The notes under the pieces are model-generated. The model was not told where the DNA came from and made no database searches. It was given only the letters and a program-made list of their open reading frames with translations. 22,323 nt of DNA from a virus, in IMG/VR virus record IMGVR_UViG_3300028920_000287, positions 1 through 22,323 of that record; one strand, 5' to 3'. The position numbers were made by a program, and so were the translations under genes. This document shows, one piece after another, positions 1,691 through 22,323 of the stretch (position 1 is its first letter; every line of letters starts with the position of its first letter).

Positions 1691-2410
1691 CTATATGCCA
1701 ATACCAAAATTGTATAGTTGCTCAATTTGTGCATCTGTTAAATCTGAAAGATACCAATACATTTGGTCTATTTGGCAAGATGCATAATCGGTGTTTCCGT
1801 AAGTATATCCGATACTAACAACATCTCCTGGTCTTTGCACCGAAAAATATAAATTATTATCCTGGTCTACGGCATTAACATATAGCTTCCAATACCAAGT
1901 ATTATATCTAACAACCGTAATCATATTCCACCCTGGCTCATCTATTTGGCCTGTGCAAGTTACGGGTCCTGGTGCTCCATCTGTTTCATTAGCATAAAGG
2001 GTTAACTCTCCATCCCCATCAACAGATAATTTAATAATATCATCATAGGAAGTCCCATCATAATATCCATAAATTAAGGTATCTGCTACATTCGCATAGT
2101 TAAGCCAAAAATTAACAGTTAAATCTGAATTTGGCCAAGAATTATTATTAAACCATATATCGGCTAAATTCCCTTCTGAATATATTCCACCTTCTTCTCC
2201 AAAGGATAAAGCCTGGCCATTTACTATCTTTCCTGTGGTATAAGATATACTTCCGGCTGTGGAAAATCCAATAGCACCAATAGATGGTGTTAAATTCCCA
2301 TCGAATTTATACAGCAAATATGGACTACCTGGTGCACTTTCATAAAAGGGAAAGGTTGCTGGTTTGCCTCCTGTAGAAATTATATTTCCTCCGTATCTAA
2401 TTATACTCAT
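1691..2410 (-). CDS. LamG-like (concanavalin-fold) tail adhesin
   Basis: A 239-residue protein paralogous to the proteins at 948-1658 and 6653-7576. The N terminus is MSIIRYGGNIISTGGKPATF. The fold markers follow: LLYKFDGNLTPSIGAIGF near residues 32-49, SGSISYTTGK-like strand, then DLTVNFWLNYA, PGWNMITVVRYNTWYWKLYV and the terminal DAQIEQLYNFGIGI. The start ATG (2410-2408) overlaps the TGA of the glycine-rich protein gene (2409-2407), so translation is probably coupled to it. Its stop is TAG. It probably recognises a surface polymer or protein, but the ligand cannot be read from sequence. Confidence 0.7.
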   Translation of the reverse strand: MSIIRYGGNIISTGGKPATFPFYESAPGSPYLLYKFDGNLTPSIGAIGFSTAGSISYTTGKIVNGQALSFGEEGGIYSEGNLADIWFNNNSWPNSDLTVNFWLNYANVADTLIYGYYDGTSYDDIIKLSVDGDGELTLYANETDGAPGPVTCTGQIDEPGWNMITVVRYNTWYWKLYVNAVDQDNNLYFSVQRPGDVVSIGYTYGNTDYASCQIDQMYWYLSDLTDAQIEQLYNFGIGI

Positions 2411-3150
2411 TGGAATTTATATTTTATTATCACTATCCCTTGCCTTCCGCTTCCACCAACAGCTACACCGGAAGAAGCAAAATCACCACCTCCACCTCCT
2501 CCATAAGAAGATGCATTTCCGCCAAATCCAGTTCCTCCACCGTAATTCGTGCCGCCATTTCTACCTCCAGTTCCTCCACCAGCATAAGCCACCACACTAC
2601 CAGATAAATCGGAATATATTCCATTTCCTCCTAATCCACCAGTTGTGCTATTCCTGGATGCGCCATTTCCCGAAGCACCGCCTCCACCAGCTCCGGCGCT
2701 GTTACAAACTCCACCTCCACCCGAAGTGCCACTTCCGCCTGCTCCACCGCTCGCGTTGTTAAATCCTGGTGTCGTGCCTCCAGCTGCTGTTTCACTAATA
2801 GCCCCTCCAATTATAGAAGTTGCACTTCCATTGGTATAAACCGTTCCACCGTTTCCAATTGTAATTGTATAAGTTTCTGTGCTAACTTCTAAATTCGTTA
2901 CATAAGCATTTCCTGCTCCTCCACCTCCGGGGTTATCACAAGTTGTTCCGTATCCTCCACCTGCTCCACCACCAACTATAAGTGCCGATACATCTCCACC
3001 AGCTGTTACAACAAAATCATCTCCGGAAGTAAAAGTATGAATTTTGTAATCCCCATCTGTTGTAACAGTTCCTCCTGTTGCGGCTACAAAACTACCTCCA
3101 CCTCCTCCGGAAGCGTATATTCTACTACTTTCTGCTATTCCAATAATCAT
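2407..3150 (-). CDS. Polyglycine-rich tail adhesin
   Basis: A 247-residue protein. After a short N terminus (MIIGIAESSRIYASGGGGGS) comes TDGDYKIHTFTSGDDFVVTA, the usual entry strand of phage glycine-rich tail domains. From about residue 60 to the end there are many glycine clusters (GGGGAGN, GGGAGGGYG, SYGGGGGGDF), and it closes with GRQGIVIIKYKFQ. This pattern matches the glycine-rich domain of tail receptor-binding proteins. In the phage S16 gp38 adhesin, related glycine-rich stretches pack as polyglycine type II helices and carry host-range loops. It is coupled by ATGA to the LamG gene downstream and starts one base after the TAA of the large fibre gene. A tip adhesin role is inferred. Confidence 0.72.
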   Translation of the reverse strand: MIIGIAESSRIYASGGGGGSFVAATGGTVTTDGDYKIHTFTSGDDFVVTAGGDVSALIVGGGAGGGYGTTCDNPGGGGAGNAYVTNLEVSTETYTITIGNGGTVYTNGSATSIIGGAISETAAGGTTPGFNNASGGAGGSGTSGGGGVCNSAGAGGGGASGNGASRNSTTGGLGGNGIYSDLSGSVVAYAGGGTGGRNGGTNYGGGTGFGGNASSYGGGGGGDFASSGVAVGGSGRQGIVIIKYKFQ

Positions 3151-3151
3151 A

Positions 3152-6100
3152 TTATCCTTTTAAGTTTCCAAAGGCATACCAAGTTCCACTTCCTTTGTGT
3201 ATTGCTGTTGCTCCAGCATATTGGTCTCTTAATTGCACCGAAGAATCTGTTGTATAAAGCGTGGAAGCTTCTAAAGTAACATATCCAGTTCCAATATTAA
3301 TAATATTAACAGTAAATCCAGCATCCAAACTATCTGGTAAAGTTACAGTAGCCGAAGCATCCATTTCTACTAATCCACCAATATCTCCGGAAGTAACGGT
3401 GTATCCAGTAGATACCTCGTTTAGTGCTAATAACGTGTTGGCTTTAATATCATAAAGGTCTTCTATAGAAGCGTCTTGTGCTCCAATATCAACTCCACCA
3501 ACATAAAGGTCCCCAACTATACTAACGTCATCTGCGAAGTTTGCGGCATTAAGAATCTTTGTTACATCTGGCTCAAAGGAAGCTACATCACCACTACCAC
3601 TCCATATTCGAATCCCATCATAAATATAAATCGAATTGTAATCACCGGATACCGGGTCGTTGGTATCACCAAATTCTACATATCCAAATATTGTATTAAA
3701 AAAGGCTGTAGGAAGAGAGGTAAAAGCAAATCCTGGAATATAAACATCCACACCTGCTTCGATACTAACGTCCATTCCTCCTAAAATCGTTATAGGGCCA
3801 TTAATTTCTAAAGCCCCTGCAATAGCACCACCCGATAACGGTAAATAATCATCTAAGGAAGATATTAAAGCGAAAGATGCATCAATTTGTGTTTGTGTAT
3901 AGAATAAAGCGGATACATCTACAGTTTCGGTTGCCTCCCAATATCCATTTTGGTATACAAGGGTATCGTTATTGCTTGCGTCCGCAATCGATACATCAAG
4001 AAGTTCTGTCTTAAGTGCAAAGGAAGCATCCACATAAGCTATAGTTGCATAATCATCTAAGGAAGTTATTAGTGCAAAGGAAGCATCAACCTGTTCTATC
4101 GTATAGAAGTAATCCCCTGCATCAACAAGTATATCTGCAATATCCGTAGCTACGTCCTCAATAGCTGTGGTCGGTTTGTTTTCCCATACAGCTCCACTAT
4201 ACATTAAAGCATCATCTGTGGATACATCTGTTATTGTTACATCTGTTAATCCAGATAAAGTGCTGGCATAATCAATAGATGCATCAATAACCACCACATT
4301 ATCGGAAGAAGAAATAACAAGCTCTGCGGAAGAAGTATATAATCCTTTAAAAACAAGGTCTTCTAAAACCTTTTCTTTATAGAATCCAATTCCTTCTCCA
4401 GTATTAGATGCTGTGTTAACTTCTCCACTAAAGCTTGCATCAATATTAATATCGATATAATCATCATATTCAACAATATCAATAGCACCTGTTCCACCTA
4501 ATTTCTTAAACATTAAATTGCCGGATGCATCCAATCCTTTGTAAACCGAAGCATCCATTCCAGCCTGGTCTATATTGTAAGCTCCTTTTACAGATACATC
4601 TGGCACAAAGCTTGCAAAGGAAGCATCTACATCGGCTTTAAGTGCAAAGGAAGCATCAATCTCCTCTATAGAATAGAAGTAATCTCCAGCATCAACTAAA
4701 ATATCTGCTATATCTGTAGCTACGTCGGCTATATCCGTTGTTGGTTTATTCTTCCAAAGGCTATCCTCATACATTAGCCCGTCTGCGGTGCTAACGTCTA
4801 CAATAGATACATCTGTTAATTGCGAAAGTGCTGTTGCACCTCCACCCCCGCCTGCTACGGATACATCCAGCTGGCCAGATACCCAATATAATCCATCACC
4901 TAAGCTGGCTTCTTTAACATAAGTGCCATCTGTTATAGTATCTTGTTTAGCATTTAAACTTCCATCCACATAAGCCTGGCTATAGAAGTCTGTTGGAATT
5001 CTTGTAGATACATCATCTATATCTGTGGTGTTCTGTGCTATTAATCCTTCTAAGGCGCCAATAGAAGTATCCAAGTTTCCAATATCGGTTTCAGCTGTAT
5101 TAACTCTTGTGGATACATCTGAAATATCGGTTTCATTGGTATAAACCCTTGCCGATACATCTGCTATATCGGAAGCATTTTGGCTAATTTCTGTATCTCG
5201 TGTAGCTAAACTTCCATCCACGTAAGCCTGTGTAACATCACCTCCAACAGCTACAGATACATCAAGCTGGCCTGCAACCCATACAAGCCCATCCCCAATA
5301 GATGCCTCTGTTAAGAAAGGATATTTTCCTGTTAAGTAATTATATTGTGCTAAGTTTAAGTGGTATCTTTGTGTTGCTAAACCACCTTGTATACCAAGTA
5401 AATCATTGTGGTCCTCTATACTTTGCGGGTCTCCAGCATACCATAGTCCTGTAGTTTCGTTGTATATTAGCACCTCCCCTGTCTGCGGGTTGTTTGCGGA
5501 TACATCTGTTAATCCACCAACAGATAAATCTGTTACTCCACCACCAGCTACAGATACATCTAATTGTCCGGATACCCAAACTAATCCATCACCTAAGCTG
5601 GCTTCTTTAACATAAGTGCCATCCGCTATAGTATCTTGTTTCCCAGCTAAAGCCGTATCAATCTGGCCTAAAGAAGTATCAATATTTCCAATAGTGGTTT
5701 CTGCTGTATCCATCCTCGTAGATACATCTGCAATATCGGAAGTATTAGAAGATATTAGTCCTTCTAAGGTGCTAATAGAAGTATCTAAGTTTGTTATATC
5801 CCCTTCTGCTGTATCCATCCTCGTAGATACATCTGAAATATCGGAAGTATTCTGCCCAATCTCTATATCTCTTGCTGCTAAGCTTCCATCCACGTAAACT
5901 TTAGATACCCCCGAAGCATCAATAGCTGCAATTGCTGCTGTATTTGCTCCAATAGAAGCATCGTGTATTACTAATAAAGTTTCATTAGCATCCACTCTCG
6001 TAGATACATCATCTATATCGGAAGCGTTTGCTGCAACAGATGTATCAAGGGTTTCTACCCTAAGGTATAAATCTGCTACACTTCCATCTGTGGCTGTAAT

Positions 6101-6598
6101 CGATACATCAAGATAACCTGCATTCCAAACAAAGTCTCCTCCTAAAGAAGCTTCTAATACGGCTAATCCAGTATCTAATTTTCCTGCTAAAGCTGTATCT
6201 AATTGTCCAATCGAAGTATCAATATCTAATAAAGAAGCTGCATTTGCTGCTATAGAAGCATCCTGTATTCCTCTATAATTATCAAGCCAAGCTATAGATA
6301 CATCTCTAAGTGCTAAGCTACCATCTACGTAAGTTAAAGTGGTATAATTTCCTAAATCGCTTTCTAAGGATGCTATAGAAGCATCTTGTATAGTTCTATA
6401 ATTATCCAACCAAGCTATAGATACATCTTGCGCATCATTTTCTGTAAACAACACCAAAATAGAAGCATCCCTAAGTGCTAATTGCGCATTAACATAAGTG
6501 GTTGTTGCATATCCTGCTATAGTTCCAGATACTATCACATCGGCTATCCAACCTCTGGTGCTTGCATCGAAAACTCTGCCCGTAATTCCTTGGCTCAT
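3152..6598 (-). CDS. Large modular tail fibre protein
   Basis: A 1148-residue fibre, the longest gene here. About residues 1-330 and 440-560 are heptad-like repeats of the type NTSDIADVSTRMDTAETTIG, predicting a trimeric coiled coil as in many phage fibres. They alternate with small modules ending DGLVWVSGQLDVSV, and from about residue 590 with modules of the type LTDVSIVDVSTADGLMY plus DIADILVDAGDYF. The C-terminal part (about 1050-1148; VEMDASATVTLPDSLDAGFT, later GATAIHKGSGTWYAFGNLKG) resembles a common phage fibre end domain. The tripeptides DAS, DVS and DTS occur about 44 times. There is no enzymatic motif. Internal duplications are visible in the DNA (listed separately). It probably forms the long fibre that carries or precedes the adhesins encoded just downstream. 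The start is ATG 6598, 54 bases after the previous stop. Confidence 0.75.
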   Translation of the reverse strand: MSQGITGRVFDASTRGWIADVIVSGTIAGYATTTYVNAQLALRDASILVLFTENDAQDVSIAWLDNYRTIQDASIASLESDLGNYTTLTYVDGSLALRDVSIAWLDNYRGIQDASIAANAASLLDIDTSIGQLDTALAGKLDTGLAVLEASLGGDFVWNAGYLDVSITATDGSVADLYLRVETLDTSVAANASDIDDVSTRVDANETLLVIHDASIGANTAAIAAIDASGVSKVYVDGSLAARDIEIGQNTSDISDVSTRMDTAEGDITNLDTSISTLEGLISSNTSDIADVSTRMDTAETTIGNIDTSLGQIDTALAGKQDTIADGTYVKEASLGDGLVWVSGQLDVSVAGGGVTDLSVGGLTDVSANNPQTGEVLIYNETTGLWYAGDPQSIEDHNDLLGIQGGLATQRYHLNLAQYNYLTGKYPFLTEASIGDGLVWVAGQLDVSVAVGGDVTQAYVDGSLATRDTEISQNASDIADVSARVYTNETDISDVSTRVNTAETDIGNLDTSIGALEGLIAQNTTDIDDVSTRIPTDFYSQAYVDGSLNAKQDTITDGTYVKEASLGDGLYWVSGQLDVSVAGGGGGATALSQLTDVSIVDVSTADGLMYEDSLWKNKPTTDIADVATDIADILVDAGDYFYSIEEIDASFALKADVDASFASFVPDVSVKGAYNIDQAGMDASVYKGLDASGNLMFKKLGGTGAIDIVEYDDYIDINIDASFSGEVNTASNTGEGIGFYKEKVLEDLVFKGLYTSSAELVISSSDNVVVIDASIDYASTLSGLTDVTITDVSTDDALMYSGAVWENKPTTAIEDVATDIADILVDAGDYFYTIEQVDASFALITSLDDYATIAYVDASFALKTELLDVSIADASNNDTLVYQNGYWEATETVDVSALFYTQTQIDASFALISSLDDYLPLSGGAIAGALEINGPITILGGMDVSIEAGVDVYIPGFAFTSLPTAFFNTIFGYVEFGDTNDPVSGDYNSIYIYDGIRIWSGSGDVASFEPDVTKILNAANFADDVSIVGDLYVGGVDIGAQDASIEDLYDIKANTLLALNEVSTGYTVTSGDIGGLVEMDASATVTLPDSLDAGFTVNIINIGTGYVTLEASTLYTTDSSVQLRDQYAGATAIHKGSGTWYAFGNLKG
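4071..4250 (-). repeat. Direct repeat A, copy 1 (inside fibre gene)
   Basis: This 180-bp stretch aligns without gaps to 4641-4820 (offset 570, i.e. 190 codons). It encodes the module with VDASFAL..., ...WENKPTTAIEDVATDIADIL and DVTITDVST. The two copies have diverged at many positions but stay in the same frame. Confidence 0.8.
4641..4820 (-). repeat. Direct repeat A, copy 2 (inside fibre gene)
   Basis: Partner of 4071-4250. It encodes the equivalent module with WKNKPTTDIADVATDIADIL and DAGDYFYSIEEIDASFALK. Confidence 0.8.
4854..4948 (-). repeat. Direct repeat B, copy 1 (inside fibre gene)
   Basis: This 95-bp stretch matches 5547-5641 at about 85 positions (offset 693, 231 codons). It encodes the block KQDTITDGTYVKEASLGDGL followed by YWVSGQLDVSVA. 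Confidence 0.85.
5547..5641 (-). repeat. Direct repeat B, copy 2 (inside fibre gene)
   Basis: Partner of 4854-4948, encoding KQDTIADGTYVKEASLGDGL and then VWVSGQLDVSVA. Weaker relatives of the same block are visible near 5250-5310 and 6100-6155. Confidence 0.85.
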
Positions 6599-6652: not shown

Positions 6653-7576
6653 TTAAAGAAAATTCTCATACATATGCTTCATTGCATATTTCCCAACTCT
6701 AACATCAAATATCCGAAGCTGGTCTAAGGTGCCACCAAATCTCCCAGTTGCTAAATTATTTGCTTGTGTTGGATAATATGGTGTAGTCATTCTCCTTCTA
6801 TTAACCCCATCACATCCAAGCATAATTATATCCCCATTAAAAGTATTGGATGTTACGCTTGCATCATTTTCTAACTCCCCATTAACATAAAAGCTTAATA
6901 CGGAAGAATCGTAAGTTACCCCAAATTGCACCCATTCGTTTTCATACACCTCTGTTGTTGTATAGTCCATTTGCAATACCCCATTGGATATAGCATATAA
7001 CCTCATTTTGTATCGGTCCCTTTGGTTGCTTGGTGTTGCTGTTGTTGCTGTTGGCACAATAGATACTTCTATATAAGAAGAAGCATCTGTTCCACCACAA
7101 GTGGAAAAATAACCACCGCTTTCATATCTTCTGGAAGTTTTAAATAAAGTCTGTTCTATTGGTAACACATCCCCTTCCCAAGCCCCTGTTCCATAACAAA
7201 TATCGTCTGGCATATCTGCCCATCCAGTAACACTCCACCGGTCCTCATTAAAAGTTGTGCAAAGGCTCGGGTCGCTCTGGTTAAGATAAACATAGTGCCA
7301 CCAACACCTCGTTATAGTCCAATAATATCTCGAATATTCCCAAAAGTTGCATATATGGTTTCCGAATTTAACGCCCTTCCCGGAAGAAGTATCTACATAG
7401 GATATACTTTTGCTATAAGCACTAACATCTAAATCAAAGCCCCAATATCCCTCATCGGTTAAATCATTATCGAATTTCCAATATGCCTTGTATAAATCGA
7501 TAACAGGGTATGTTACACTTTCTACATAGTGCCCCTTTCGGCAAACACTCCCATCATATACAGCTATTCCTTCCAT
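6653..7576 (-). CDS. LamG-like (concanavalin-fold) tail protein
   Basis: A 307-residue protein. I place the start at ATG 7576, which overlaps the TAA of the previous gene (TAATG), rather than at the in-frame TTG at 7603. It begins MEGIAVYDGSVCRKGHYVES, then AYWKFDNDLTDEGYWGFDLD, matching the opening strand of the two smaller LamG-like paralogues. Later come WVQFGVTYDSSVLSFYVNGE and GGTLDQLRIFDVRVGKYAMK, the closing part of the fold. It is longer than its relatives because of a tyrosine- and tryptophan-rich insert (EYSRYYWTITRCWWHYVYLN) in the first half. It carries four D-[AVT]-S motifs and several cysteines. The likely role is a surface-binding tail subunit, inferred from fold and location. 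Confidence 0.68.
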   Translation of the reverse strand: MEGIAVYDGSVCRKGHYVESVTYPVIDLYKAYWKFDNDLTDEGYWGFDLDVSAYSKSISYVDTSSGKGVKFGNHICNFWEYSRYYWTITRCWWHYVYLNQSDPSLCTTFNEDRWSVTGWADMPDDICYGTGAWEGDVLPIEQTLFKTSRRYESGGYFSTCGGTDASSYIEVSIVPTATTATPSNQRDRYKMRLYAISNGVLQMDYTTTEVYENEWVQFGVTYDSSVLSFYVNGELENDASVTSNTFNGDIIMLGCDGVNRRRMTTPYYPTQANNLATGRFGGTLDQLRIFDVRVGKYAMKHMYENFL

Positions 7577-9111
7577 TATGTTATTGCATATTTGTAAGTC
7601 CAAACACCAGATAATCTCTTTTCAAATCTTAAGTTTTCGCTGGCATCTACAAAGAATCTCCAACTTCCATCTACATTAGGATAACCAAGATATTGGTATT
7701 CTGGCACTATAAAGTCGTCTGGTGTAACTCCATAAGCTTCATCAACCTGTATTGTTGCCCTTGCCTCCCATTTAGCTATAGAAGCATCATATTGTAGCAC
7801 ATCCCAGTTGCTCGGGTATCCTGGATGCCCAACACTAACATCAATTAAATTATCTAAATATATGTTCCATTGTCCTGCTGCAAGCGTGCCCTCTATAGTT
7901 GCATTTCCAGCAACATATAAATCCTCATAAATATCTAAATCACCATCTATAGTAGCATCATATTGCACATAAAGGTTTGTTATATTCGGGTCTATTATAC
8001 TTCCATCCACATATAAATCCCCATCTATAGAAGCATCCCCTTTAAAATCTACATTATCCCAAAAATATGCAACGTCTTTAGCTTGGAATATTCCATCAAC
8101 ATTTAAGTTTCCATCAATATCTGCACTCCCGGTATGGTAAAGGAATCCACCCCCTAATATAGATACATCTCCACTCTTTATCATTAATCCTTCCCAAACC
8201 TGTAATCCCCCGCTTTGTATATCAACAAAATCCAAAAATTCTGTTGTTCCAACAACTCTTAAGTTTCCAAGGAAATATCCACTTCCATCAACATTTAAGT
8301 TTTTATCTACATTAACATCCCCTTCTACGAAAAGGCTACCATCCACTATAGTTAAATCCCCTTCGAAGTCTACAGATGCAAGGGTAACAACTCCTGGTGC
8401 CCATTTTGTTCCATTCCATTTTAGCACATCTGCTGGTGCCGGGGTGCTTGCATCAACATCTGCCAAATCACTCAAGCTTGCATCTCTTTGCGTCCATAAG
8501 GAAGCATCCGAATTCCATCTTAAGAATTGCCCCTCATTCGGGTTATTAACCGAAGCATCGTTAAGGTCGTTAAGGGATATATCTGTATAAGTCCAATAAT
8601 CGCCATTCCAATAGAGGAATTCTCCTGCTGCAATATCACCAACAGATACATCGTTAATATCTTCTAATTTCTCTACCCCAAAAGATGCATCTGCATACGA
8701 AATCTCTCCAGTTGCTGTATCAAAGAATAGCACTTTATTAGTGGAAGTATCTGCTAAAATTCCTGGCAAGAAAAGGGAAGCATCTAAATAAACATCACCT
8801 GTTATCGAAGCATCTCCACCAATAGAAGTAGCACCGGCAATCTTAACCTCGTCCCAAAAATATACAAGGTCGTTAAAAATAGCTATATCCGAAAAGGTCT
8901 TAACTCCCAAAACAGTTTGTGCCATCTCGGGATAAACATACATTAAATAACCAGATACATCACCAGCCCAAATCTCTGTTTTAGAATAGTAATTATTGCT
9001 GTTAATTGTTCCACCCCCGCCATAATAAACTCCGCCAACATAGTTAGTTCCGGTGCCACCCTGCACTCCTGTATCAACAAATTGTTTTAGTATGGAAATA
9101 TCAATGGCCAT
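7576..9111 (-). CDS. Tail fibre protein with beta-repeat region
   Basis: A 511-residue protein. Many short repeats have the form GDLYVDGSII, IDGDLDIYEDLYVAGNATIE or VEGDVNVDKNLNVDGSGYF, which suggests an elongated beta-structured (perhaps beta-helical) fibre. Between them are modules such as LSDLADVDASTPAPADVLKW and NGTKWAPG, a unit common in phage tail fibres. D-[AVT]-S occurs about 15 times. The C terminus (LRFEKRLSGVWTYKYAIT) looks like a closing strand. The gene is joined by TAATG to the tail hub gene upstream and to the LamG-like gene downstream, so the three should be made together. It is likely to be a fibre attached directly to the hub. Confidence 0.7.
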   Translation of the reverse strand: MAIDISILKQFVDTGVQGGTGTNYVGGVYYGGGGTINSNNYYSKTEIWAGDVSGYLMYVYPEMAQTVLGVKTFSDIAIFNDLVYFWDEVKIAGATSIGGDASITGDVYLDASLFLPGILADTSTNKVLFFDTATGEISYADASFGVEKLEDINDVSVGDIAAGEFLYWNGDYWTYTDISLNDLNDASVNNPNEGQFLRWNSDASLWTQRDASLSDLADVDASTPAPADVLKWNGTKWAPGVVTLASVDFEGDLTIVDGSLFVEGDVNVDKNLNVDGSGYFLGNLRVVGTTEFLDFVDIQSGGLQVWEGLMIKSGDVSILGGGFLYHTGSADIDGNLNVDGIFQAKDVAYFWDNVDFKGDASIDGDLYVDGSIIDPNITNLYVQYDATIDGDLDIYEDLYVAGNATIEGTLAAGQWNIYLDNLIDVSVGHPGYPSNWDVLQYDASIAKWEARATIQVDEAYGVTPDDFIVPEYQYLGYPNVDGSWRFFVDASENLRFEKRLSGVWTYKYAIT

Positions 9112-11066
9112 TATTCGTAGTTTATATTAGTTAATTCTGTATTATACTCATTCCACGTGCATCTGTATTCGTCCTTTAACACATTGTAATCATATGCTGT
9201 TAACACGAATTGTTTGTATCCTTGCGAAGAATCATAATAAAGGCTGAAAGGCCTAATCGGGGTTTCGCTACGTATAGTTCCTGTTATCTTCTGTCTTGTA
9301 TTTGCGTATAGCTGCGCCTTGTTAGATATAAGCATATCTGTTAAGGGGTATGCTGTAATTCCATCCTCCGTCCAAAAATTACTCCTTGCACTATATTCGG
9401 AATTAAAGAATATTCCATTTGCATAATTAAGGCTCTCTATATCGTAAATTGTGCATTCTATTTCCTTCTTGTTAATAAAGGCGTTATTTAACGTCCCTGT
9501 AATTAAATTGTTTTGGAAATCCCCTGTAGCTGCAATCTGGTAATCACCTTGGTATTCTCCAAGCAAAGGTGTATCTGGTGTATCTCCTGCATCTGCATAA
9601 TACCCAACCATCATACCAAATATGAAAGTCTTGTCTCCTGAAAGCCCAACGCTCGGGTCGGAAAGGTCTATATCGATAGTGGTTTCCAAAGGAATAGTTC
9701 CTTTAAAATCACTACCAGATACATTATGGGTATTTATAGCATCTTCAATATATGGCTCGCTACCTCGATACCAACGGCTATTATCATCATCATACATTAT
9801 ATACATAGTCCCATAAGTTCCTGTATAGTCTTTAAGATAATAGCGGATATAGAAATCGTAATCTGCTTCATTTTGTGTTCCCCCTGTAACAACAGGAAGC
9901 CATCTTAACGATATCTTAAGTGCTGTTCCAGCGCTCGGGTCGATAGTCATTTTAAACTTTGTAGCACATCCGGTAGAAGAATCTGATGGCGAATATCCAC
10001 CAGCTCTTAACCAAGCATTTTTAAAGGTCTTGTAAGGTCCAATATAAGGGAAGCTTGCACTTCCAGCTGTATGGTAATAAACCCATTCTTTAGTATAAGT
10101 CGGATACCAATATCTCGGGTTTGGTTGTGTTGTAAAGGTAGCGTTATCGGGCTCAAAAGGGTTTGTTAAATTGCTGAAAGGTATCCCCTCTAATTTAACC
10201 TCTATCTTGTTAAGTCCTGGAATAAATCCAATAGTTGGTGCATCTTCCAAGAAGCATAAGCTCTTTATGTTTATGCTCGAATCTAATATGGATACATCCT
10301 CCCCAGTAGTCCCATAATCATAAGAAGTATCTGGCTGGTATTCTATAAATTCCTTAACGGGCTCTTCCCAAATATCATCATACCTTTCCACATACCAAGC
10401 CCCATCATACCAATAGATGTAATTATCAAAGGGTATTAATATCTTCTCTATAATATCTAATCCACCATCTCTTTCAATATTGTTTTGCCAAAAGTTTTCT
10501 GTGCTAATACCACATCTGTTAAAAGCCTTTCCATACCCAAATCCATAAGAAAGGCTATCTTCATAAAGCCCCATATTAACTCTAATCGGGTCTTCCTTTC
10601 CAGTTAACTTTAACGTTTCATTAAGGATATCAATTATACTCCTTCGGTCTATCGTATCAACAATAGTTGGATGTATATCTCTTAATTTGCTCAAATAGTT
10701 AGAAGCTGTTACTTTAAGGGGTGCATTATGCCTGTATTTCTCGTTAGCCGTTGCTGTATTAATAAAGCCAGTAAAAAGGTTTATGGAATTATCTGTATCA
10801 TAAATTCTAACCTGGAATTGTCTTTCCTCGTTGCTAACCAAATCAAGCAAATCATAGAAATCATCTCTATCATTAAGAATTTGTAAGGTGGAATTTAACT
10901 TTACAATCGGGTCATTCCAATCTGTAAAATCATATTTAATTTGCATTCCCTCTGGTAACAAAGTAATCCTCGTGCTCGGGTCTGTTCCATCAAGCTCATC
11001 AATAAAAAGCATTCCTTGTGTATATTTGCTATACCACGGCGTGTAATATTTAATATTGTATCCCAT
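9111..11066 (-). CDS. Tail hub/baseplate protein (Dit/Tal-like position)
   Basis: A 651-residue protein encoded directly after the tape measure, coupled to it by TAATG. In siphoviruses this position holds the distal tail (Dit) and tail-associated lysin/hub (Tal) proteins. The N-terminal part (GYNIKYYTPWYSKYTQGMLF, then IKYDFTDWNDPIVKLNSTLQ and FQVRIYDTDNSINLFTGFIN at about residues 83-102) looks like a Dit- or hub-type ring domain. Around residue 210-240 is DNYIYWYDGAWYVERYDDIW, a pattern I associate with hub proteins of Bacteroidota phages. Hub repeats are followed by a C-terminal domain with ITGTIRSETPIRPFSLYYDS. I see no clear peptidase or lysozyme motif. No separate Dit gene is present, so this protein may combine both jobs. 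Confidence 0.65.
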   Translation of the reverse strand: MGYNIKYYTPWYSKYTQGMLFIDELDGTDPSTRITLLPEGMQIKYDFTDWNDPIVKLNSTLQILNDRDDFYDLLDLVSNEERQFQVRIYDTDNSINLFTGFINTATANEKYRHNAPLKVTASNYLSKLRDIHPTIVDTIDRRSIIDILNETLKLTGKEDPIRVNMGLYEDSLSYGFGYGKAFNRCGISTENFWQNNIERDGGLDIIEKILIPFDNYIYWYDGAWYVERYDDIWEEPVKEFIEYQPDTSYDYGTTGEDVSILDSSINIKSLCFLEDAPTIGFIPGLNKIEVKLEGIPFSNLTNPFEPDNATFTTQPNPRYWYPTYTKEWVYYHTAGSASFPYIGPYKTFKNAWLRAGGYSPSDSSTGCATKFKMTIDPSAGTALKISLRWLPVVTGGTQNEADYDFYIRYYLKDYTGTYGTMYIMYDDDNSRWYRGSEPYIEDAINTHNVSGSDFKGTIPLETTIDIDLSDPSVGLSGDKTFIFGMMVGYYADAGDTPDTPLLGEYQGDYQIAATGDFQNNLITGTLNNAFINKKEIECTIYDIESLNYANGIFFNSEYSARSNFWTEDGITAYPLTDMLISNKAQLYANTRQKITGTIRSETPIRPFSLYYDSSQGYKQFVLTAYDYNVLKDEYRCTWNEYNTELTNINYE

Positions 11067-13447
11067 TAGAAAGAATTATTTACGATATCTTGGTTTGTTA
11101 ATACTCCAACAAGTTCTGTTCCTTCAATACGGAAGATAACCTCTCCACCAACAAATCCTTTTTTACCAAGAATACCTTCAAGTTTGTTAAGTGGTGCAAT
11201 AACTTCCGGGTTGCTACGTGCCCCTGGATATTCCCCAACCGTAGCTAAAGTCTCTCCATAAGCAATACCACCTTTTGCTAAAGGCGTGGATGCAATAGCT
11301 GCCACCTGTGCTGCTCCCAAGGCTGCTGTAATTCCAGCCAATACAAAACCAAGTGGTGGTGTAACAGTTAAGGCTTTGGATACACCTAAAGCGGTGTTTA
11401 TTAGTGCCTGCACAATAGCTAAAGCCTTTTCCTTCTTCGCATATTTTTTCTCAATTTCTTCACGCTTTTTAGCATTATCTCCAGCGGCTTCTAATTCCTT
11501 GTTTTTCTGTGCTTCGAATATATTGGATACAGCTTCTGTTAACATCATAGCTGCATCTGCAACCTGTTGTGTTATTTCTTGCCTTCTTTGTTCTGCTGAT
11601 TGCTGTATTTCTGTTAACTTCTCTTGGTATTCTGCAAAAGATATTTCCCCCTTCTTAAGTTGTTCTTTCCAATATTCGGGGTTAAACATATCTTCCTGCA
11701 TCTTCTCAAATTGCTTGGTAGAAATCTGGATATCTTTGTCTGTAATCTCTATTGGTTGTATTTTAGGAAATTCTATTTCTACATCTGCAAAGGCACTTTC
11801 CATTTCCTTCATAGTCTCATCAATCCAAGCATCAACATCGAATTCCTCTATTTCTGGCTTAAATACAATCGGCTCTTCATCATCTCCAAGGCTTTTAATT
11901 ATCTCCAGTTTATTCTCTAATTCGTTAATCTTCTTTTGTGTCTCAACTAATCCAGCGTTATTTTTCTTAAAATCTAATACCTCTGCCTTCTCCTTAAGTC
12001 TTGCAATTTCTTGTTGTAAACCTTTTATAGTAGTTAAGCTATAGATAACTTCACCATCCCCATCATCTCCGCCGTCTCCACCGCCTCCGCCTTCATTTCC
12101 AGTAGCTCCACCACCATCTTGGATAGCTTTGTTAATACCTAATAGTTGCTTTAGGGTCTCTGCTCTTAATTTAACAAGTTTATCTTCTTCTGTTTGTATT
12201 CCTTCTAAAGCATTTTGGAAGTTCTCTGCCCTTTCTGCAACTCTTGCCATATTATTGTAAGCTGCTTTAGTGCTACCGTTATATTTTAGTTGTTCTTCAT
12301 TTGCCTTCTTGTATGTTGCTATAAGTTCTTCTAAAGGCATAGCATCGATGGAATCATCATATAAGGAAGTCCAAGTCTTTAAGGCATTTTTCATATTCTC
12401 GATATCCTTAACCTGCTGCTTCCATATTTTGTCTCTTTCTTTATTAACTTTCGTTAATTCCTTCTCATATCTTAAAGCTACAATCCTCTCTGCATAAGCT
12501 TCATTAACTTTGCCTAATTGCGTAAGTAATTCCTCGTTGGATGTTACTTCTGTATCAATATTTGCGAAGTATTCCGGGTATGCTGCTCGTAGTTTTTCTA
12601 AAGCTATTCTCCTTTGGTCCGTCCCTTCTTTTAAACCTGTAACAGCAATAACAGCTGTTTGCACGGCTTTTTGCTCTCTTAATAAAGCTCCTTCTGTTTC
12701 CCCAATATTGTTAACTAAAGTTGTTCCAGCGGATATAAAAGGCATAAGCCCTTTCAATACTAATTGCCCGAATTTAACTTTAGCTTGTTCTGCGGAAGCC
12801 TGTAGTTGTTGCATTTTCTGTGCATCTGTTAAGATAACTTCACCCATCTTGCCAAGCTCTCTTTCTGTAATTGCACCAACGGCACTCATAAAGTCTCCAG
12901 TCTTCTCTATTTCATTTCTTAAATCAACCGCTGAAATACCAAGGTTATCAAGAATCAAAACACTTTTACGTCCCAAACCGGTAACAAAACTCTCAGCCAG
13001 ATAGTCCACGCTTTCCCCTGTTTGTGCTGCTCGTTTAGTTGCAAATTCCAAGCCCCTTGCTAATACATCCATTGGAATACCGAAGTTATCTGCTTTAATA
13101 GCTTTCTTCATAAGTTCAAGCTCTGTTACAGTTCCTCTTGTAGCTTGCTTAAGAGATAGCATATTAGCATCCGCATTTCCTAATCGGTTAAAGGCTTGTT
13201 CTACACCAGCAACTTCCGAAGCTAATTTAGCCGCTTCTTTACCAAATCGTATAATCTCCCTGGCTGCAAAAGCTGCTGCAATCGCACCACCAACCTTCTT
13301 AAAACCCCCGCTTAACTTTTTATTAAAATTCTGCTGGTTTTTAGCGAAGTTAGATATATTTTTATTGGCATCATTTAATCCCTTCTTAAGGTCTGCTGTG
13401 TTAGCTAATAACCTAAGGGATAAATCTGTCATTACTTTTCCGGCCAT
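11066..13447 (-). CDS. Tail tape measure protein
   Basis: A 793-residue protein that sets tail length and is ejected ahead of the DNA. The N terminus (SLRLLANTADLKKGLNDANK) and the alpha-helical, Ala/Lys/Glu-rich body are typical. Residues about 443-463 are a Gly/Asp linker (GGGGGDGGDDGDGE) between two helical parts; the second has long coiled-coil stretches (EMESAFADVEIEFPK, QQSAEQRRQEITQQVADAAM). Near residues 676-719 is a hydrophobic segment (IVQALINTALGVSKAL, GFVLAGITAALGAAQ) usual for tape measures, and the C terminus contains GEYPGARSNPEVIAPLNKLE, also usual. At about 1.5 Å per residue the tail would be roughly 120 nm long (rule of thumb). The gene follows the chaperone genes and a terminator. 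It starts at ATG 13447 with no Shine-Dalgarno sequence. Confidence 0.9.
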   Translation of the reverse strand: MAGKVMTDLSLRLLANTADLKKGLNDANKNISNFAKNQQNFNKKLSGGFKKVGGAIAAAFAAREIIRFGKEAAKLASEVAGVEQAFNRLGNADANMLSLKQATRGTVTELELMKKAIKADNFGIPMDVLARGLEFATKRAAQTGESVDYLAESFVTGLGRKSVLILDNLGISAVDLRNEIEKTGDFMSAVGAITERELGKMGEVILTDAQKMQQLQASAEQAKVKFGQLVLKGLMPFISAGTTLVNNIGETEGALLREQKAVQTAVIAVTGLKEGTDQRRIALEKLRAAYPEYFANIDTEVTSNEELLTQLGKVNEAYAERIVALRYEKELTKVNKERDKIWKQQVKDIENMKNALKTWTSLYDDSIDAMPLEELIATYKKANEEQLKYNGSTKAAYNNMARVAERAENFQNALEGIQTEEDKLVKLRAETLKQLLGINKAIQDGGGATGNEGGGGGDGGDDGDGEVIYSLTTIKGLQQEIARLKEKAEVLDFKKNNAGLVETQKKINELENKLEIIKSLGDDEEPIVFKPEIEEFDVDAWIDETMKEMESAFADVEIEFPKIQPIEITDKDIQISTKQFEKMQEDMFNPEYWKEQLKKGEISFAEYQEKLTEIQQSAEQRRQEITQQVADAAMMLTEAVSNIFEAQKNKELEAAGDNAKKREEIEKKYAKKEKALAIVQALINTALGVSKALTVTPPLGFVLAGITAALGAAQVAAIASTPLAKGGIAYGETLATVGEYPGARSNPEVIAPLNKLEGILGKKGFVGGEVIFRIEGTELVGVLTNQDIVNNSF

Positions 13448-13468: not shown

Positions 13469-13500
13469 AAAAAAAGGCATCCGCTTTTGCCGATGCCTTT
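13469..13500 (-). terminator. Terminator between chaperone and tape measure genes
   Basis: On the minus strand GGCATCGGC-AAAA-GCGGATGCC forms a stem with one G-G mismatch and is followed by seven T (13475-13469). The flanking AAA/TTT can extend the stem. The upstream arm overlaps the TAA of the T frame (13501-13499). It should reduce transcription into the tape measure gene. Confidence 0.82.
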
Positions 13501-13846
13501 AAAGTTCCAGTTCCGCCGCGGATGCCTTTTTAGTTGGTCCTTTCATTCGCTCGGCGTGCAATCTATCTTTTTCTGCCCAATCCTCTGATGTTAAGTTCTC
13601 CAATTTCTTTTGGTCTTCAATATCTTTCGGGTCTACTTTGTCCCAGCTGAAAGGCATATATTGTTTACAAAATTGCGTATAGTTCTTTTTGTATTTTTTA
13701 GCAACCTGTAAAGAAAAAGTAAAATATGTTTGCAATCTCATACTCTCGTATATGGTCTTGCTAAAGAAAAGTTGGTCTTCCGCCCAAAGGTTGTTAAGTA
13801 TCTGGAATTCTCGCAAAGTTAATCTAAGGAATTCCCTTTTCTTCAT
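13499..13846 (-). CDS. Tail assembly chaperone T region (made as G-T fusion)
   Basis: This frame from ATG 13846 has 115 codons, but the protein is probably not started there. Reading backwards, the same frame stays open to the slippery site at 13906, adding 20 codons (VEPVELDYERFRLISRHRWN). A -1 slip at AAAAAAG in the G gene enters exactly this frame, giving a fusion of about 270 residues (135 + 20 + 115). The sequence across the ATG, RHRWNMKKREFLRLTLREFQ, looks like one continuous domain of the type found in tail chaperone T proteins, so the Met is most likely internal. The C terminus is charged (TSEDWAEKDRLHAERMKGPT). In lambda the equivalent GT protein bridges tape measure and tail tube subunits during tail assembly. 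Confidence 0.8.
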   Translation of the reverse strand: MKKREFLRLTLREFQILNNLWAEDQLFFSKTIYESMRLQTYFTFSLQVAKKYKKNYTQFCKQYMPFSWDKVDPKDIEDQKKLENLTSEDWAEKDRLHAERMKGPTKKASAAELEL

Positions 13847-13852
13847 ATTCCA

Positions 13853-13912
13853 CCGGTGCCTGGATATAAGTCTAAACCTTTCATAATCCAGCTCAACCGG
13901 CTCTACTTTTTT
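13853..13912 (-). promoter_or_regulatory. -1 programmed ribosomal frameshift signal
   Basis: The end of the G gene reads GCA AAA AAA AAG TAG. The heptamer A AAA AAG (13912-13906) is in the correct frame for tandem -1 slippage and is the most efficient type known in bacteria. Five bases (TAGAG, including the G stop codon) separate it from a stem: CCGGT (13900-13896) pairs with ACCGG (13857-13853) and CTGGAT (13891-13886) with ATCCAG (13865-13860), with a small internal loop and a 20-base terminal loop. The spacing and the open -1 frame into T make this a convincing signal. Confidence 0.9.
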
Positions 13913-14310
13913 TTTGCTACTTCCTTTTGGTTTTCGTCTTCTATTATATCTTCTACCACCTTCTCGCTCATATCACTCATATCGTATAAAAAGGCTGGCA
14001 CAATCTTCAATAGATGCGTCCATTCTTTATCCAACATATAAGGATATTCCTTTTCCTTAATACCAAGTTTATTACCTGCTCTCAAGTAATTTAGAATCAC
14101 CCTAAATAGTGGTGGCCTGTGGTATTCAAATCCGGTCTTAATACCAAGCTTCAACATATCAAGCAAGTTATCTGCTTGCTTGGTAACGTTGCTCTCGGTG
14201 GCTAATAGTTTAACAAAGTCCTCTCCTGTTTCACGCTTGTATTGTATAAGCGTGCTCATAGAGATAACAAAAGGATACTTTCTTTTTGCTAATTTTACAT
14301 ATTCTACCAT
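13903..14310 (-). CDS. Tail assembly chaperone G
   Basis: A 135-residue protein encoded between the tail tube and tape measure genes, the usual place of the G/T chaperone pair. It starts MVEYVKLAKRKYPFVISMST and contains TLIQYKRETGEDFVKLLA, a helical pattern common to these proteins, then PPLFRVILNYLRAGNKLGIK. The C-terminal tail is acidic (EKVVEDIIEDENQKEVA) and ends in three lysines, coded by the slippery A-run, and TAG. Most ribosomes should stop here and make G alone; a minority should shift by -1 into the T frame. G and G-T together coat and keep soluble the tape measure protein during tail assembly. Identification rests on position, size and the frameshift element rather than on strong sequence motifs. 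Confidence 0.82.
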   Translation of the reverse strand: MVEYVKLAKRKYPFVISMSTLIQYKRETGEDFVKLLATESNVTKQADNLLDMLKLGIKTGFEYHRPPLFRVILNYLRAGNKLGIKEKEYPYMLDKEWTHLLKIVPAFLYDMSDMSEKVVEDIIEDENQKEVAKKK

Positions 14311-14322
14311 CGCAATTCGGTT

Positions 14323-14748
14323 TTAAGCGGTTGTTCCAATAGTAATATCTCCGTCGCCTGCAATCTCAAAGCTATAAGTAACCGCTGCTCCAACTCCTCC
14401 CTCTTGGCTTAAGCTGGAAAAATATCCTGCTCCGCTGTAGTAAGTTTGGCTGGATACATCTGGTGTAATAGCCCATCCGATAGAAGCATCACCGGAAGTA
14501 AGGTTTCTCATCATAGAAGAAAATCCGATATCTGTTCCTGGAATTTGGCTGTCTCTAAAAACTAATCCGCTACCAGATATTGTATAGGAATACAAGTCCG
14601 GCACGTTTTGTTTAGAATTTGTGGTGGAATTCATACAAGCAATTTCTATCATATCTTTAGTAACCGCCATAGAAAAATCCGTTGCACATCCAATTATGCT
14701 TCCATCAATGGTTATATCGATGCTCTTGCTGAAAAGTGGTGTTGCCAT
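14323..14748 (-). CDS. Major tail tube protein
   Basis: A 141-residue, beta-rich protein with the pattern of siphovirus major tail proteins: an N-terminal strand pair SIDITIDGSIIGCATDFSMA, then VTKDMIEIACMNSTTNSKQN, the loop region that in tube proteins mediates hexamer stacking, and a closing strand AAVTYSFEIAGDGDITIGTT. It lies between the tail terminator and the chaperones, the usual place. The protein polymerises around the tape measure to make the tube. It contains two D-[AV]-S motifs (GDASIG, PDVSSQ). It starts at ATG 14748 and is separated by 42 AT-rich bases from the previous gene. Confidence 0.82.
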   Translation of the reverse strand: MATPLFSKSIDITIDGSIIGCATDFSMAVTKDMIEIACMNSTTNSKQNVPDLYSYTISGSGLVFRDSQIPGTDIGFSSMMRNLTSGDASIGWAITPDVSSQTYYSGAGYFSSLSQEGGVGAAVTYSFEIAGDGDITIGTTA

Positions 14749-21712: not shown

Positions 21713-22195
21713 CTAATATAAATACGCCTTGTTGTTTATTATATTCCCAATAGAAGATGTCCCAATACCAAATATATTTTTAAGGTCTGTATAAGAATAA
21801 TTGCCTGTGGAATAGAGATATCTAATTCTATTTGCTTGCGCTAAGGTAATCTTTCTTGCTCCAAATAATCCATTAGCTACGGCGTGGTGCACATTCTGTT
21901 TTTGCGTGCACCACTCTATATTCTCCGCCCTGTTATCTGTCTTAATCCCATTTTTATGGTTAAGTATTTTGTATCCGTTAGGGTTTTCTACAAAGGCTTT
22001 TGCAACAAGGTGGTGCACCATATTATTAGGATATCTCTCTTTATTTTTACGCAAGTTAACTCTTAAGTATCCATTTCCATCAAGAAAGGTTTTCATTAAC
22101 CTTCCTCTCTTGTAGTTTGTATTACTTTTAACTTTGCCCCGGTCGCTAATTTGGTAGTCCGGATATTCCTCTATAGTTAGCCATCTTTCTTTCAT
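21713..22195 (-). CDS. HNH homing-type endonuclease (NUMOD4-HNH)
   Basis: A 160-residue protein. I choose ATG 22195, which overlaps the TGA of an upstream frame as ATGA, over the in-frame TTG at 22210. Residues 4-24 match NUMOD4 (WLTIEEYPDYQISDRGKVKS). Residues 59-105 match the HNH_3 domain: MVHHLVAKAFVENPNGYK, LNHKNGIKTDNRAENIEWCT, with catalytic-site candidates H61/H62, H80 and N92. Residues 116-160 look like a DNA-binding helix-turn-helix (TDLKNIFGIGTSSIGNIINN). Such free-standing enzymes are mobile elements common in phages. HNH proteins next to terminase can also assist packaging, but those belong to a different HNH type, so a selfish role is more likely. The catalytic residues look intact. 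Confidence 0.88.
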   Translation of the reverse strand: MKERWLTIEEYPDYQISDRGKVKSNTNYKRGRLMKTFLDGNGYLRVNLRKNKERYPNNMVHHLVAKAFVENPNGYKILNHKNGIKTDNRAENIEWCTQKQNVHHAVANGLFGARKITLAQANRIRYLYSTGNYSYTDLKNIFGIGTSSIGNIINNKAYLY

Positions 22196-22323
22196 ATTCT
22201 TTTTACACAATAGAATTCCAAAGTTTCGTAGAAACCCCCATTCCCATTTACCTTTTTCGCGCGTAAAGGCCTTCCAAAGGCCCTGTATGCCAAAGCCCTT
22301 TTGTATCTTAGGTTTAATAGCAT
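22192..22323 (-). CDS. 3' end of a possible gene within the right repeat copy
   Basis: On the minus strand a frame is open from the window edge (an ATG occupies 22323-22321) to TGA at 22194-22192, 43 codons. It starts MLLNLRYKRALAYRAFGRPL, carries on with KKVNGNGG and ends TLEFYCVKRI. It overlaps the HNH start as ATGA. The first 32 residues are the same as those encoded at the left end, apart from one Cys/Tyr difference. It may be the tail of a longer gene upstream of HNH. I recognise no domain, and coding is not proven. Confidence 0.38.
   Translation of the reverse strand: MLLNLRYKRALAYRAFGRPLRAKKVNGNGGFYETLEFYCVKRI
22228..22323 (-). repeat. Right copy of the 96-bp inverted repeat
   Basis: Reverse complement of 71-166 with two adjacent differences (22303-22304). 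It reaches the window edge, so its full length is unknown. It lies directly upstream of the HNH gene. Confidence 0.93.

Follow-up and report, generated by a model that had tools for sequence, protein, structure and literature searches.

A conserved nine-A tract at the junction of the putative tail chaperone genes G and T as a likely site of slippage in a group of tailed phages

Tail-length chaperones are the textbook case of phage ribosomal frameshifting, and two overlapping reading frames in the tail region of a phage raise the question of whether they too are joined into a longer product and, if so, whether the ribosome or the RNA polymerase slips. The frames lie in an IMG/VR record of 22,323 bases (the whole stretch analysed, called here the window) with a tailed-phage structural cassette on the minus strand, in the order terminase, portal, capsid, connectors, major tail protein, G, T and tape measure (Table 1). 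The two overlapping ORFs, G and T, stand between the major tail protein and the tape measure gene, and the order is the same in relatives. In phage lambda the tail assembly chaperones G and G-T are produced by a ribosomal -1 frameshift (Xu, Hendrix, Duda 2004, as reviewed in PMC5009743), and the tail-chaperone frameshifts described in that review are ribosomal. From its place in this gene order, G probably has a chaperone function as well; its predicted fold weakly resembles phage p2 ORF12 (Z 3.5) and YqbN (Z 2.9), both VIA hits that are not diagnostic, and a fold search of the PDB gave no significant match for G or T.

Table 1. Coordinates of the features discussed, numbered along the window
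Feature	Position	Strand	Evidence or remark
Major tail protein	14323..14748	minus	phrog_1407 1.7e-10; query used to find relatives
G, short putative tail assembly chaperone, 135 aa	13903..14310	minus	Position between major tail protein and tape measure; AF2 pLDDT 90.6
A9 homopolymer tract, conserved slippage element	13907..13915	minus	A9 in 27/30 non-redundant loci
In-frame heptamer A_AAA_AAG, slippery site of the earlier note	13906..13912	minus	3' part of the A9G run
T, -1 frame extension, predicted GT fusion KKK-VEPVELDYERF...	13499..13915	minus	Conserved from the run onward; AF2 pLDDT 85.8
ATG, would-be gene-finder start of T	13844..13846	minus	Not conserved; a start here would remove residues 11-22, the first confident helix
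RNA hairpin H1 (CCGGT..CTGGAT / ATCCAG..ACCGG), two-part stem	13853..13900	minus	Synonymous null p 0.0035-0.0075
RNA hairpin H2 (GGAATTCCTTAGA..TTTGCGAGAATTCC)	13804..13835	minus	Counterpart of the hairpin in most relatives
Tape measure protein	11066..13447	minus	phrog_2854 (tape measure) 5.5e-5 and phrog_32115 (unknown function) 3.5e-36

On the minus strand G ends in GCA AAA AAA AAG TAG. An earlier note on this DNA had described the heptamer A_AAA_AAG together with a downstream stem as a complete -1 ribosomal element, and its local description is accurate: the heptamer (13912-13906) lies in the G frame with the stop codon TAG (13905-13903) directly behind it, the stem (13900-13853) begins 5 nt behind the heptamer, and the -1 frame, which reads KKK-VEPVELDYERFRLISRHRWN-M, contains 20 codons before the ATG at 13846 and is open on to 13499. 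An in-frame X_XXY_YYZ heptamer and a -1 relation of the frames, the features by which programmed -1 ribosomal frameshifting is recognized, are thus both present in the window. The heptamer is also the end of a run of nine As (13915-13907), which the earlier note did not mention.

Relatives were found by searching IMG/VR with the major tail protein, which yielded 26 loci at first and four afterwards, of which three are near-identical. The T of one relative led to the cultured Cellulophaga phages phi12:1, phi17:1 and phi18:1 and to phages of Bacteroides uniformis; Cellulophaga phi39:1 and Flavobacterium phage 11b came from further searches. No relatives were retrieved with the window's G, T or portal from IMG/VR or with its G, T or tail tube protein from INPHARED; in the genome collection no prophage relatives were detected, one search giving a single weak Gammaproteobacteria match (37% over 43 residues). 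The terminase, matching thousands of phages, was uninformative as a route to relatives. Clustering at 90% nucleotide identity left 30 non-redundant loci from IMG/VR contigs and from Cellulophaga, Flavobacterium and Bacteroides phages, and the counts given here are of clusters, not of independent evolutionary events. Since the cultured relatives are phages of these three genera, the host of the window phage is probably a Bacteroidota bacterium. Two relatives differ in gene content near the pair: one (L005) has two tandem, similar major tail protein genes upstream of G (1864-2283 and 2316-2738), and another (L004) has an extra small ORF (MKNEDYRGVYSSQYF...), absent from the window, between T and the tape measure gene (~6250-6540).

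The comparison bears first on whether the fusion exists. Conservation of T sets in shortly after the run (DYxxLRLxxRxxFNIKKKEFLxLTFREFQ in the near group), upstream of any start codon, and the region between the slip site and ATG 13846 encodes conserved protein with a confident predicted helix (AF2). Among the relatives T has no conserved start codon, the first ATG being found 7 to 104 codons behind the run and, in L012, not at all. In addition, 11 of 22 members of the T family match Pfam PF09550 Phage_TAC_6 (best 2.7e-6) and their gene position agrees with it; the T of the window itself matches nothing in Pfam, so that this link is carried by the relatives. Because T is conserved upstream of the ATG, with a helix there and no conserved start, and because relatives match Phage_TAC_6, the G-T fusion protein is considered real on the grounds of sequence conservation and structure prediction, and slippage on the A-run almost certainly makes it. 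This phage and about thirty others, of which the known ones infect Bacteroidota, would accordingly produce a short and a long tail-building helper from one gene pair. An alternative is that T is translated from a separate start without any programmed shift, perhaps by coupling to G; ATG 13846 is the first start codon of the T frame in the window, and the cultured relatives are annotated with two separate "hypothetical proteins", the splitting by gene finders that the earlier note had foreseen. This explanation is highly improbable, as relatives place the first ATG of T at such different distances or lack it, conserved T begins close behind the run, and a start at 13846 would remove the helix. 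The earlier note was therefore right to regard this ATG as a false start and the frame transition as joining G and T.

The comparison gives a different outcome for the slip site itself. Apart from the A9 loci counted in Table 1, the junction run is A8 in two clusters (L002 and phi39:1) and A18 in one (L004); all 30 thus have A8 or longer, A10 is recorded in phi17:1, which is nearly identical to phi12:1, and no A7 junction occurs among the loci examined. A_AAA_AAG is not conserved, most relatives carrying A_AAA_AAA in its place, and the loss of the heptamer while both genes persist, which the earlier note had named as refuting its proposal, is the situation in most relatives, where a run of A8-A10 persists in any phase. 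With the stem also lacking a counterpart in near relatives, A_AAA_AAG plus stem cannot be maintained as the complete element. The run occupies all three codon phases (NNT AAA AAA AAA TAA; GCA AAA AAA AAG TAG; GAA AAA AAA AGT TAG), and in the commonest of these a ribosomal A_AAA_AAA would need seven As, leaving the first two surplus. Conservation confined to the heptamer, which is expected of a ribosomal shift without strictly defining it, was not observed; the longer run is kept. In most loci a T nucleotide precedes the run, so that TAA closes the T frame at its 5' edge, and the stop codon of G is found at the 3' edge or a little way past it, indicating that the shift occurs inside the run.

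The frame relation of G to T is -1 almost everywhere, with apparent +1/-2 relations in phi12:1, phi39:1 and L004. One more A would restore -1 in each of these, and phi17:1 has A10 with a -1 relation; the deviating relations may be homopolymer-length errors. Homologs that do not share the direction of the shift are expected of transcriptional slippage (PMC3711429); however, metagenome contigs and older phage records can give a run one base too long or too short, and for this reason the direction was not used as evidence. The +1/-2 relations were likewise dropped as proof of transcriptional slippage in view of the A10 of phi17:1. The recorded lengths, A10 in phi17:1 vs A9 in phi12:1 and phi18:1 (L043:201-210 and L031:1499-1507), differ among near-identical Cellulophaga phages and change their apparent frame relation. 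In L004, a near relative of the window, the A18 tract (~5832-5849) leaves G and T related by +1/-2, lengths of A16 or A19 would make the relation -1, and the tract is either a real expansion or an assembly error. A homopolymer that is recorded as A9 and A10 in near-identical phages could also suggest a phase-variable contingency tract, in which replication slippage toggles genomes between G-only and fused states; yet none of the loci examined is in the fused (in-frame) state and lambda tail assembly requires both products at once (PMC5009743), which makes such toggling very hard to credit.

As to which enzyme slips, the balance of the features tilts toward the polymerase. The RNA-DNA hybrid in the polymerase spans 9-10 bp and on an A9 tract is all rA:dT. 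A nine-A run of conserved length with a conserved ORF arrangement was proposed as the mark of purposeful transcriptional slippage (Baranov 2005, PMC1088944), and homopolymers of 8 or more were described as transcriptional slippage sites (Antonov 2013, PMC3711429). The junction presents a conserved-length run of eight or more identical bases, as specified for transcriptional slippage (PMC1088944), and such runs are avoided in other coding sequence, a further feature expected of it. In the other ORFs of the same phages (~130 kb), A8 or longer was observed once against ~31 expected from synonymous recoding (0/7.5, 1/11.5 and 0/11.6 by codon phase), two further counts being remnants of the A18 tract left by the mask. 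Like the gene arrangement, the conserved tract and the conservation of T from the tract onward, this avoidance is directly observed; it extends to every phase, which favours slippage by RNA polymerase, although replication slippage may also account for the scarcity of such runs. For in-frame A_AAA_AAG the ratio was 0.67 vs 0.68 for out-of-frame AAAAAAG, so the in-frame heptamer is not the more avoided.

Since the run is nearly invariant in length and occurs in all three codon phases, transcriptional slippage is favoured, and on balance it is somewhat more likely than not that GT is made mainly in this way. In the proposed mechanism, the nine-A tract at the G end would allow both G and the GT fusion to be obtained from one overlapping gene pair: unslipped mRNA would yield G, ending just behind the tract, while RNA polymerase realigning on the tract would insert one A (or an equivalent number modulo 3), and ordinary translation of the slipped mRNA would give GT. 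By analogy with lambda, G would cover the tape measure protein, with recruitment of the tail tube protein falling to GT. We infer both that the polymerase slips rather than the ribosome and how efficiently slippage proceeds.

Programmed -1 ribosomal frameshifting on the A-run (at A_AAA_AAA or A_AAA_AAG), with RNA structure behind the run as stimulator, is a possibility to be taken seriously, though we lean away from it. Tail chaperones as a rule use ribosomal frameshifting (PMC5009743), an in-frame A_AAA_AAA or A_AAA_AAG is present in nearly all runs, the G stop lies immediately behind in most loci, and the predominance of the -1 relation is as in ribosomal cases. It gives no account, however, of the constant retention of eight or nine As whatever the codon phase, or of in-frame heptamers being avoided no more than out-of-frame ones. 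Its best argument is the downstream structure: a polymerase still on the run cannot be influenced by RNA that it has yet to make, and such structure therefore speaks for a ribosomal event or for some other function.

The stem of the window, significant and 5 nt behind the heptamer, belongs to this argument. Compared with dinucleotide shuffles, H1 has a z of -1.7 to -2.0 (as good in 13/200 and 3%), and compared with synonymous recodings of T a z of -3.0, so the unusual clarity ascribed to it by the earlier note is borne out as better than chance, but not as a conserved trait: L002 and L005 have no counterpart, and other loci have their own structure in that interval. H2 in the window alone is not significant (p 0.23-0.28). 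Across loci the signal is stronger, with z-scores that are MFE-based and depend on the folding model. In sliding folds of 20-22 loci, mean z was -1.8 and -1.6 for starts at -12 to 0 and -2.6 and -2.8 for starts at +36 to +48, most other positions being near -0.4. When the T protein was fixed and codons were redrawn from each locus's usage (20 loci), selection of structure at synonymous sites was evident, mean z reaching -1.83 at +0-60 and -2.3 to -2.5 at +36-108 (p 0.05 or less in 12 to 14 of 20 loci), and falling to ~0 beyond +140; some downstream structure at z -2 or lower was present in 5 of 8 further loci. The ~105 nt downstream of the run thus carry RNA structure selected beyond protein and codon use. 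RNAalifold on H2 gave a weak consensus in two subgroups and none in a third, where the hairpin is kept in a shifted register, and for this reason selected structure is claimed here and not column covariation.

The placement of this structure fits a ribosomal stimulator less well. Measured from the run, the second hairpin is found at 48 to 71 nt and the strongest structure at about +50 to +70; its position follows the T protein motif instead of keeping a set distance, which is odd for a stimulator. The same sliding folds of 20-22 loci contained no structure peak just upstream of the run and thus give no indication of a polymerase slip stimulated by a stem, such as that of the Roseiflexus IS element. 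Polymerase and ribosomal slippage may act together; a plausible if tentative proposal is that a wide group of Bacteroidota siphophages sets its chaperone ratio through polymerase slippage on a strict A9, with the hairpins as a second, translational layer of control.

The G/GT frame transition is a known kind of system. Lambda G/GT shares with it the site between major tail protein and tape measure, the pair of products and the mostly -1 relation; lambda, in contrast, uses one heptamer, whereas here a conserved-length A9 tract is accompanied by selected downstream RNA structure. The dnaX gene of Thermus thermophilus and Deinococcus IS elements (PMC1088944) have a conserved-length nine-A run with overlapping frames behind it, although slippage in Thermus dnaX gives the shorter product and here, in a phage structural gene pair, it would give the longer one. 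Chlorobi dnaX and poly-A transposase genes (PMC3711429) also have overlapping ORFs joined at poly-A, for which transcriptional realignment was proposed, but these are other genes with runs of 7 to 10, and the run is nearly always 9 here. In the open-licence papers searched, transcriptional slippage was not described for any tail chaperone gene, and the combination of a fixed-length homopolymer and selected RNA structure in this phage group is new as far as that literature shows. If the polymerase does slip, a phage group setting its chaperone ratio by transcriptional slippage would, like dnaX, show that control can move to another level without altering the ratio of the products. For the annotation of Bacteroidota phages, a G-T fusion that is now split can be recognized by an A9 located between the genes for tail tube and tape measure, and homopolymer-length errors at the tract will look like changed frames.

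Other regions of the window show features of their own. Very long tail-region proteins (3152-6598 and 7576-9111, the former on the minus strand) are dense in repeated DAS/DVS motifs, and this motif comes back in many structural proteins of the phage. By reading only, a Gly-rich tail-region protein (2407-3150, minus) adjoins two LamG-type-looking proteins, and an HNH-type homing-endonuclease-like ORF (21713-22210, minus) lies beside the terminase genes.
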